This document shows, in pieces, positions 18,805 to 50,257 of a DNA stretch of 64,000 nt (the first letter of the stretch is position 1; every line of letters starts with the position of its first letter). The stretch spans positions 1 to 64,000 of the forward strand of contig CADCTC010000018.1 in NCBI GenBank assembly GCA_902805635.1. Direction: 5' to 3'. The notes beneath the pieces are model-generated. The model saw only the letters and a program-made list of their open reading frames with translations. It did not search any database and was not told the DNA's origin. The stretch comes from an uncultured Chloroflexota bacterium. GTDB lineage: Bacteria; Chloroflexota; UBA11872; UBA12225. Both the position numbers and the translations under genes were made by a program.

Positions 18805-18844
18805 TTGTGTCCCAATGTGTCCTTTTGTGTCCCTGCCCACACGG
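18805..18844. repeat. Three tandem TGTGTCC motifs with exact 10-bp period, followed by CACACGG
   Basis: TTGTGTCCCAATGTGTCCTTTTGTGTCCCTGCCCACACGG; motifs start at 18806, 18816, 18826. Confidence 0.75.
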
Positions 18845-19142
18845 TGGAAGGTACAAAGGCACTGTAGTCCCTCTGCGGCTGTGGAGGTGCGGAGGGCGCC
18901 GGCTGCTGTACCGCCGGCTGACATAGCGCGACCTCTCCCGTAGATATAGAGCGGCAGAGCCGGGCAGATTTTCGGGGCAGTTTGGTCTCACCGTGGGCGT
19001 TCCGTAGCTGGCCAGCGGGTCGCGTCGTCCTCCGCCGGTCTTGCGCCAAGCGCGGGCGGACGATGGCATGGGGCGTCTACGATAGGGCGGCATGATCGAG
19101 AGCGAGAGTGGCGACGGCTAAGGCGCTGCGGGCGCGGTATAT

Positions 19143-37744: not shown

Positions 37745-40078
37745 CTACATCTGCGGAGCGCGCGTGGCGGTGGGAGTGGTAGGAGGCGGAGCAGCTGGCG
37801 GCCGCGTCGGCGTCGCTTGCGCGACGGCGGTGGGTGCTCCGGGAGGGGTGGCGACGGCTGGGGGGCTGGCGCCCTGTAGCGAGGGACGGGAAGCATCCTG
37901 GATGCGGCGCACCACGTTGTTGTCTCGGTCCGCGATGAAGAGGCTGCCGTCGGGGCCGAGCGCCAAGCCGGAGGGCGAGCTCAGCTCCGCCTCGGTCGCG
38001 GGGCCGCTGTCGCCGGAGAAGCCGGTCGAGCCGCCGCCCGCGATGGTGCTGATGCGCCCGTCCGGTGCGATGCGCCGTACAACGTCGTTGAGGGTTTCGC
38101 TGACAAAGAGGCTGCCGTCGAAGCCGGCGGCCAGGCCGCGCACGCCCGAGAGGCGCGCGGCCACCGCGGGCCCACCGTCGCCTCGATAGCCCGGTGTGCC
38201 GGTGCCGGCGACGGTAGAGATGGCGCCGTCCGGCGCGATGCGCCGCACGCGCTCATTCCCTGAGTCGGCCACATACAGGCTGCCATCAGGAGCGACTACG
38301 ATCCCGATGGGTGAGTCGAGCATGGCCTGGGTGGCGGGGCCGCCATCGCCGAAGAAAGCATCTTCACCGGTGCCCGCGATGGTGGCGATTGCGCCATCAG
38401 GGGTCACGCGGCGGATGCGGTGGTTGCCGGTGTCGGCGATATACACCGTGCCGTCTGGGCCGACCGCGACCCCGGTGGGGTCTTGCAGGCGGGCGCGGCT
38501 GGCGGGGCCGCCGTCGCCGGTAAAGCCGGGCAGTAGCGCCCCAGCCACGCTGGTGATGACGCCATCAGGGGTCACGCGCCGGATGCGGTGGTTGCCGGTG
38601 TCGGCGATGTAGACGGCGCCGTCGCGCCCCACGGCGACCCCTTCCGGGTAGTTCAGGTCGGCCTGTGTGGCGCGGCCGCCGTCGCCACTGAAGCGCGCAT
38701 TGCCGGTGCCCGCGAGTGTGCTGAGGATGCCTGCCGGCGTGATCCGCCAGACGCGCGAGTCCTGGGTAGCGGCGACGTAGAGCGTGCCGTCGGGGGCGGC
38801 GGCGACGGCCGCCGGGGACCCCAGAACGCTGCTGAGCGCGGGCACGCCCTCCTGCGGCGGCGTGCCGGGGTCTTTGCCGGCCACGGTGGTCGCCATCCCC
38901 GCGGGCGTCACCCGCAGGATGCGGCCGTTGCCGGTATCGGCCACGTAAAGCGTGCCGTCCGGCGCCAGCGCCACGCCCTCCGGCGTCTCGATGGAGATAG
39001 ACGTAGCCGGGCGAGCGTCACCCGGCAGTGCCGCGCTGCCCGACGCGCCGCGCGACGGTGCGCCGGTGCCGGCGACGGTGGTGATGGCGCCGTCGGGGCC
39101 GACCTTGCGGACGCGCTCATTCCCCCAGTCGCCGATGAAGATGCTGCCGTCGGCGCCCACCGCGACGCCCGATGGCCCCAAAAGCGCGGCGGCGGTGGCC
39201 GGCCCGCCATCGCCGTCGAAGCCCGGCTGACCGGAGCCGGCGACGGTGCGGATGACGCCGTCCGCCCCTATGCCGCGGATGCGGTGATTGCCGGTGTCCG
39301 CCACGTACAGCGTGCCGTCGGGGCCGACCGCGATCGCCTCTGCAGCGTTGAGCAACGCCGCGGTGGCCGGGCCGCCGTCTCCGCCGAAGCCGGGCTCACC
39401 CGCGCCGGCCAGCGTGCTGATGGCGCCGTCCAGGCCCACACGGCGGATGCGATGGTTGCCGGTATCGGCGATGAGAAGCGCGCCATCCGGGGTGAAGGCG
39501 ACCCCCTCCGGGTTCTGCAGCTGCGCGGCGGTGGCGGGGCCACCGTCGCCGGCTGCACCACTCTCGCCGTTGCCGGCGACGGTGACTATCAGGCCATCCG
39601 CGGTGACCTTGCGGACTCGATGGTTCCCAAAATCGGCGATATAGAGGGCGCCGTCGGGTCCAACGGCAGCGCCACTGGGCAGGCTGAGCCGGGCTTCCAG
39701 GGCGGACGTGCCTTCGCCGCGCGAGCCGCCGCGGCTGGCGCCTGCCACGACCTGGGGCACGCCGTCAGCGCCCAGCCGCAGCACCCGATTGTTGCCGGTA
39801 TCCACGATGAAGAGAGCGCCATCGGGCGCCACGACTACGGCCTCCGGCGCGTCGAGTTGCTCCGGCCCGGCGGCCATCTGCGGCATCGGGCGGGTACCGG
39901 CGTAGGTAGTGATGACGCCGGCTGCCGGCCGCTCGCCCTGCGCCATCGCAACGCGGGCGCCCGCGCCGTGCGTGAGCCGGAACGTGGCCGAGGCGGGTGT
40001 GAGCAGCTGCGCCGCGACCAGCAAGGCAGCCGCTCCGGCGCCGGCGGCAAGAGATAGTTCGCTTCTGTGAACGCTCAT
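37745..40078 (-). CDS. Secreted NHL-repeat beta-propeller protein (about 12 repeats)
   Basis: Repeated GVAVGPDGTVYIADTGNHRIRRVTPDGAI.T.AGTG....GDGGPAT units of about 56 aa; N-terminal signal/TM; Pro/Thr-rich C-terminus. Confidence 0.92.
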   Translation of the reverse strand: MSVHRSELSLAAGAGAAALLVAAQLLTPASATFRLTHGAGARVAMAQGERPAAGVITTYAGTRPMPQMAAGPEQLDAPEAVVVAPDGALFIVDTGNNRVLRLGADGVPQVVAGASRGGSRGEGTSALEARLSLPSGAAVGPDGALYIADFGNHRVRKVTADGLIVTVAGNGESGAAGDGGPATAAQLQNPEGVAFTPDGALLIADTGNHRIRRVGLDGAISTLAGAGEPGFGGDGGPATAALLNAAEAIAVGPDGTLYVADTGNHRIRGIGADGVIRTVAGSGQPGFDGDGGPATAAALLGPSGVAVGADGSIFIGDWGNERVRKVGPDGAITTVAGTGAPSRGASGSAALPGDARPATSISIETPEGVALAPDGTLYVADTGNGRILRVTPAGMATTVAGKDPGTPPQEGVPALSSVLGSPAAVAAAPDGTLYVAATQDSRVWRITPAGILSTLAGTGNARFSGDGGRATQADLNYPEGVAVGRDGAVYIADTGNHRIRRVTPDGVITSVAGALLPGFTGDGGPASRARLQDPTGVAVGPDGTVYIADTGNHRIRRVTPDGAIATIAGTGEDAFFGDGGPATQAMLDSPIGIVVAPDGSLYVADSGNERVRRIAPDGAISTVAGTGTPGYRGDGGPAVAARLSGVRGLAAGFDGSLFVSETLNDVVRRIAPDGRISTIAGGGSTGFSGDSGPATEAELSSPSGLALGPDGSLFIADRDNNVVRRIQDASRPSLQGASPPAVATPPGAPTAVAQATPTRPPAAPPPTTPTATRAPQM

Positions 40079-49736: not shown

Positions 49737-49796
49737 TTTGGATGCTCCTTCGGTGGTCTTGAGGATGGCAATCTCGCGGGGCGCACGGCCAGAATG

Positions 49797-49825
49797 TGTG
49801 TCCCATTGTGTCCCACCGCACACGG
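49797..49825. repeat. Two TGTGTCC motifs with exact 10-bp period followed by CACACGG
   Basis: TGTGTCCCATTGTGTCCCACCGCACACGG; motifs start at 49797 and 49807. Confidence 0.7.
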
Positions 49826-50257
49826 AGACGGATCTAACCGGCAGCGCCTGCTGTCCGTAGAGGTGTGAAACACAGAGTGCATGGCGCGGGGGGGCGACTG
49901 GTTGGTTCTTGTCGCTATTTGTCGCCCTTTGTTGTCGCTGCTACCTGGTAGTGGGCACGGGCGGTGGCGAGACCGTGCGGCGCCGGCGCAAGTCGCGGCG
50001 GGGTCGTCTGGCGGGACTGTGGTCAGTTGATGTGGTGTCATTCCAATGTGGGCGGCTGGGAGTGGAGAACCGGCATCGACGGACCTCCCATAAGAGAAGA
50101 CGATTCAGGGCCGCGAAACCGGCAGGGGCACGTACCGATGGCGCGACGGTGCGGGTCGACCAATGGTGTCAACTTCTTCTTCGTCTTTGGTAGAACCTGG
50201 GCTGCCTGGACGGGCTGCCCAACGGTTGGACGGGTGTATGCGAGGAGAGCGAGAGAG

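Follow-up and report, generated by a model that had tools for sequence, protein, structure and literature searches.

What are the clustered TGTGTCC motifs found at two intergenic places in this stretch of 64,000 nucleotides of Chloroflexota DNA (the window), and do they belong to anything larger? The motifs lie where the first-pass annotation had placed them, at 18806, 18816 and 18826, followed by CCCACACGG, and at 49797 and 49807, followed by CACACGG. Their pairing is a real excess: with up to two mismatches, the paired motif occurs 3 times in the window against 0.40 expected, and TGTGTCC(N3)TGTGTCC matched the 6.1-Mb genome 14 times at 9 sites, against 1 match in the reversed control, so that the case named in the annotation as fatal to its proposal, a genome without further copies, is clearly not the one encountered. 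Both clusters belong to a set of about 45 non-coding intergenic elements of one bacterial species.

When the 9 genome sites were compared side by side, TGTGTCC proved to be one version of a degenerate unit; the wider array consists of three TTGTNNY-N3 units at exactly 10 bp, followed by CCACACGG. Genome searches for TTGTNNY-N3 x3 gave 50 exact matches (2 in the reversed control) and 96 with up to two mismatches (20 in the reversed control), and the loci that they returned are the 42 studied here. A sequence model (R1) trained on 53 arrays finds 78 places in the genome, with new arrays on contigs C245, C267, C95 and C228; the one on C267 adjoins a match to the conserved distal block (see below) that had been detected earlier and independently. 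The genome assembly, a draft, is fragmented (327 contigs, 6.1 Mb, 89% complete, 5% contamination) and elements are enriched at contig ends, with 9 lying within 350 nt of an end against 1.8 expected (contigs C1, C92, C162, C167, C245, C268, C273, C313 and C314), so that some copies are truncated. Probably, the repeats themselves broke the assembly at these nine ends.

A gapless alignment of 72 arrays (CGATTC-TTGTNNYCNT-TTGTNNCYNT-TTGTNNYCCM-nnCCACACGGTAG) shows that the 10-bp register is exact in every one of them. The variable NN dinucleotide is almost only AG, GA, TG or GT, with few CG, and is the same in all three units of 57 of the 67 full arrays (5 expected). Pairwise agreement between units reaches 191/201 and 187/201, against 75 and 80 expected, and agreement within arrays stands about 17 SD above chance. 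The spacer (unit positions 6-9) agrees between units at chance level only, suggesting that the units were matched by recognition and not by recent duplication; recent tandem duplication or slippage was therefore rejected as the source of the arrays, because it would make the spacers agree too. The most economical interpretation has a protein reading the dinucleotide, with each of the three units having to match one and the same reader. A potential hairpin after the array (CACG-GTAG-CGTG) was not above column shuffles.

At the first window site, a GT-type array of three 10-bp units (TTGTGTCCCA ATGTGTCCTT TTGTGTCCCT) occupies 18805..18834 on the + strand (score 46.7, E 2.6e-7), and its ACACGG follow-on at 18839..18844 (+) has the standard offset of the array alignment, +34 from the array start. 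The second site opens with another GT-type array in the standard register, at 49786..49825 (+, E 0.017): unit 1 is degenerate and units 2 and 3 start at 49796 and 49806, the TGTGTCC pair thus being units 2 and 3 of a three-unit array, with ACACGG at 49820-49825 (+). A further array, of CG type (TTGTCGC; TTGTCGCTAT TTGTCGCCCT TTGTTGTCGC), lies at 49909..49938 (+, E 2.1e-9) and had been missed in the first-pass annotation. The GAGGTG block described there as following both clusters is in part recognizable: the 18.8-kb copy, CGGCTGTGGAGGTGCGG at 18876..18892 (+), is a variant of an internal motif CGGTTGTGAAGGTGCGG and a weak form of the motif TTCGGTTGTGAAGGTGCG present in several loci, whereas the match at 49.86 kb is poor. 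Elsewhere in the window, a gene at 37745-40078 carries 168-nt internal repeats like NHL-type propeller repeats.

The elements are about 130-450 bp long and polar, with one to three 30-bp arrays upstream, all on the same strand, and a conserved, partly dyad block downstream. The arrays of an element are of different types: according to types tabulated by hand, with a few arrays degenerate, a type recurs in 2 of 29 multi-array elements, L064 and L065, which are homologous copies, where 10.4 would be expected, none of the 23 two-array elements is homotypic, and the arrays follow an order, GA being distal in 14 of 25 elements and proximal in 1 of 25 once homologous copies are left out. The block is almost always present downstream of the arrays and bounds the element, usually starting 77-142 bp, and at most 240 bp, past the start of the last array. 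Its first class has the consensus CCCYNNNNTATNAAGACGNTT-N9-AAANCGGCANG (in summary form AGACG-N13-AAANCGGCA), spans 27 bp from AGACG to the final CGGCA in 25 of 26 blocks and is devoid of the TTGTNNC motif; its dyad is weak, with GACGNTT and AANCGGC half-sites around a variable 9-bp centre and weak symmetric covariation. In the window, this class is found at 50083..50126 (+; CCTCCCATAAGAGAAGACGATTCAGGGCCGCGAAACCGGCAGG, E 9.9e-7). A second class (TAGATATAGA..CGG....ATTTTCGGG.CAGTTTGG) is present at six loci including the 18.8-kb site, where it lies at 18933..18985 (+; CTCTCCCGTAGATATAGAGCGG...CAGATTTTCGGGGCAGTTTGG, common to L019 and L068 and assigned to its class by eye). Block and arrays are tightly paired, as 27 of the 28 genome places found with a block model lie in array elements and the remaining one at a contig start. 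At L086 (5393-5620), the ATG of an MFS transporter gene remnant coincides with the block end (CGGC-ATG). Tandem CCCTTCGGCTCCGCTCAGGACGGG repeats were seen within the element at L015 (8090-8220) and beside the element in L078, and a second, unrelated dispersed repeat, CAGTTTGGCGCAGGTTCTCTTACTTTTCTGCCGGT, at L019 (~503-545), L068 (1194-1236) and, inverted, L021 (1488-1547; all three in coordinates of the extracted pieces).

Several elements are copies of one another: L064/L065/L080, L076/L078 and L059/L070 align at about 79-86%. Homology starts 2-10 bp before the first array, full-length pairs end at or near the block, and the flanks are unrelated. After copying, 6 of 178 core array positions changed versus 155 of 701 interior positions (p 9e-11), and free positions inside the arrays changed at a rate similar to the interior (44/217). 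The array core is thus under purifying selection. With many non-coding copies, sharp boundaries and unrelated flanks, the elements share traits with MITEs, but terminal inverted repeats are absent, the array end and the block end being different sequences. No target-site duplication was consistently above shuffles in 26 elements, no inward-facing pairs of ends were found, arrays within 5 kb of each other always having the same orientation, and no subterminal hairpin of the IS200/IS605 type follows the array, the block showing a weak dyad.

All 42 loci are intergenic, overlapping genes by a few bases at most. Relative to the element, the flanking genes at 35 loci are divergent (10), tandem against it (12), tandem with it (3) or convergent (10), and several loci lie less than 150 bp from the 3' end of the next gene. 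The neighbours, called by our own codon-usage script, comprise enzymes, transporters and regulators that are unrelated and share no theme; of 30 looked up one by one in Pfam, 26 gave a match in the frame that had been called. No transposase was found among the best 25 Pfam families per side when 76 immediate neighbours were tallied. Only two of the 38 downstream neighbours are integrases, on contigs with an intervening tRNA, and two neighbour proteins considered as integrases turned out to be a glycosyltransferase and an ABC ATPase. A scan of 17 loci at Rfam gathering scores returned three tRNAs and one guanidine-III riboswitch (L088, 9028-9092), none inside an element; two tRNA genes are located ~80-100 bp downstream of elements on the plus strand. 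The elements are oriented along the chromosome: at 34 of 41 loci, the TTGT strand is the one rich in G (third-codon-position GC skew; slope 0.131 +/- 0.011), and whole-contig skew gives the same polarity on 21 of the 25 contigs with |z|>2. We take the G-rich strand as the leading strand on a limited calibration, in which tRNA and groEL orientation lean the same way, whereas a negative correlation links T-A skew to G-C skew.

We propose, with a probability of roughly 0.45, that the element is a polar multi-protein binding site adapted to its host. An array would be bound by a head-to-tail trimer, with one protomer per helical turn on one face of the DNA. At least four paralogous proteins may make the same TTGT..Y contacts, each reading a dinucleotide of its own (AG, GA, TG or GT). 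Different paralogues would assemble on each element in a preferred order, the GA reader farthest from the block, and may act together with a block-bound protein as one nucleoprotein complex. Recognition by proteins on double-stranded DNA is favoured by the helical spacing, the type code, the lack of a hairpin and the selection at presumed contacts, and the first-pass suggestion of multi-site operators, understood as repeated protein-binding sites, fits very well with the exact spacing, the type-matched units and the selection on the core. The elements are indifferent to the direction of the genes beside them, yet they keep to the replication-associated strand, which makes a host chromosomal or regulatory role combined with spread by copying seem most likely. 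It is more tentative that they form an undescribed class of polar chromosomal cis-elements, in which paralogous readers of a two-base code would occupy, in set order, heterotypic triple arrays together with a shared core site, about 45 times along a single chromosome. With more than 70 natural sites, whose ten-base units vary essentially at two bases and do so in concert over three units, the set offers a ready-made specificity code for a paralogous family; heterotypy and the order rules suggest that several readers are combined per element, and strand orientation links the elements to replication. Taken together, these properties open to test the idea that certain interspersed repeats of bacteria serve as multi-protein sites of the chromosome and are not remnants of mobile DNA. 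Weak helical phasing between array and block (p about 0.01-0.1) and the seven or eight loci on the opposite strand count against the proposed host site, and so do the lack of a theme among neighbours and the position of roughly one element in four between convergent genes, which is hard to reconcile with a gene regulator.

Mobility could also account for much of the data. The elements would then be miniature non-autonomous mobile elements with two unlike ends, the array and the block, and would be mobilised in trans by recombinases or transposases whose genes lie elsewhere. Each array type would mark a subfamily that depends on a different enzyme, and the strand bias would arise because replication forks offer single-stranded DNA for insertion, as for IS200/IS605-like elements. 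Discrete boundaries with unrelated flanks, the similarity of the copies, the co-occurrence of array and block, and intergenic location in every gene orientation with strand polarity all agree with this idea, and the absence of terminal inverted repeats and target-site duplications also suits IS200/IS605. Two distinct ends and a spread limited to one lineage are likewise in keeping with mobility, and confinement to one genome, more typical of mobile repeats, speaks against a host site. However, neither a target-site duplication at a consistent offset nor a hairpin at the array end was detected, neither an autonomous copy nor a transposase neighbour was seen (immediate neighbours, best 25 families per side), ordered heterotypic arrays on a single element would be unexpected, and the array core is kept in all copies. 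Heterotypy, order and the lack of inverted repeats, duplications and hairpins rather fit a functional complex, and we regard mobility as possible but doubtful. In the specific form suggested by the first-pass annotation, ends of TnsB/TniA-type elements, it finds no support: target-site duplications, terminal inverted repeats and an opposed partner within 5 kb are all lacking, no transposase family stands out among immediate neighbours, the opposite end of the element is without a TTGTNNC motif, and wherever a contig holds two elements (four contigs), these point the same way.

Two further explanations give the block another role. The arrays could be activator or repressor sites next to a two-box promoter formed by the block, either on the minus strand (TGCCGG-N16-CGTC, with ECF-like spacing, similar to promoters of extracytoplasmic-function sigma factors) or with a TATA-like -10 on the plus strand. 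The fixed 27-bp block length, the excess of tandem genes toward the minus direction of the element (12 vs 3, p 0.035) and the two downstream tRNA genes would be explained. Yet 10 of 35 loci are convergent, several adjoin the 3' end of the next gene, the second block class is spaced differently and, unlike in a sigma regulon, the block never occurs without an array, save the one at a contig start. A promoter of the neighbouring gene was rejected, as every orientation class occurs, the 10 convergent cases included, and we consider promoters improbable. Still less probable are site-specific recombination sites, modelled on the arms of lambda attP or the accessory repeats of resolution sites, with the block as a core dyad with variable overlap and the arrays as one-sided arm or accessory sites. 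The half-sites around the variable centre and the one-sided direct-repeat arrays, 77-142 bp away in most copies, would suit such sites. Against this, the genome contains 12 tyrosine-recombinase matches and the integrase neighbours number only two with a tRNA between, two elements sharing a contig never show the inverted arrangement expected of attL and attR, and about 45 sites in a chromosome would be more than any known use involves. Integrase attachment sites proper were rejected, the only two integrase neighbours being on tRNA-bearing contigs.

Parts of this architecture are found in known systems. Binding sites of the OmpR/PhoB family consist of direct repeats in tandem, spaced by roughly a helical turn and usually in pairs at promoters; the minus strand here (GNNACAA) resembles their GTTACA-type half-sites, but in that family we know of no set of triple arrays of mixed type that share a distal block. 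KOPS are likewise dispersed and oriented with the replication strand; they are single 8-bp words in hundreds of copies that also lie inside genes, unlike the long, modular and intergenic elements described here, which number ~45. BldC and certain response regulators bind direct repeats head to tail on one face of the DNA (PMC5859096), and direct repeats one helical turn apart, here in an exact register, are a trait of their operators. As in BldC operators, the repeats are variable in number and would accommodate one protomer per turn, and the BldC consensus AATTNNNN(C) is laid out like TTGTNNYC; BldC units, however, measure 9 bp, have one specificity and lie at promoters, whereas those described here measure 10 bp, are typed and are not tied to genes (PMC5859096). 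Pneumococcal BOX elements, built of modules A, B and C of about 45-60 nt with predicted RNA folds, are similarly modular, intergenic, non-coding, numerous and of variable length, with constant modules at the ends and differing numbers of modules inside; here, by contrast, the modules are typed triple 10-bp arrays without a hairpin signal and the distal block is not BOX-like (PMC3049150). Literature searches on CACGAAGG-type repeats and on dispersed repeats in Chloroflexi returned nothing usable and no report, respectively.

Outside this genome, the array model found nothing in 40 other genomes of the class (78 matches in the source genome), the exact array pattern was absent from 84,980 species genomes, a set that may miss near relatives of the source, and from viral contigs, and plasmids and phages gave no array match. 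In a draw of 400 genomes from the phylum with stricter filters, the other matches came only from two genomes of another family, which hold palindromic repeats with a similar 10-bp unit; the exact pattern scan pointed to Brevefilum and another Anaerolineales bacterium. The unit of Brevefilum and other Anaerolineaceae, TTTGTGACCC, also repeated every 10 bp, is nearly identical to the GA-type unit, but there opposed arms make up an inverted repeat, a single array combines different unit variants, and a distal block was not observed. Such intergenic palindromic repeats, of 10-bp TTYGTGNYYY units, were collected from Brevefilum-like Anaerolineaceae (L148, L149 and L180-L199). In genome G002, of the same family as the source, three GCCGACACAA units lie just 5' of a groEL-like gene (L092, 1494-1528) and may reflect chance or a related operator.
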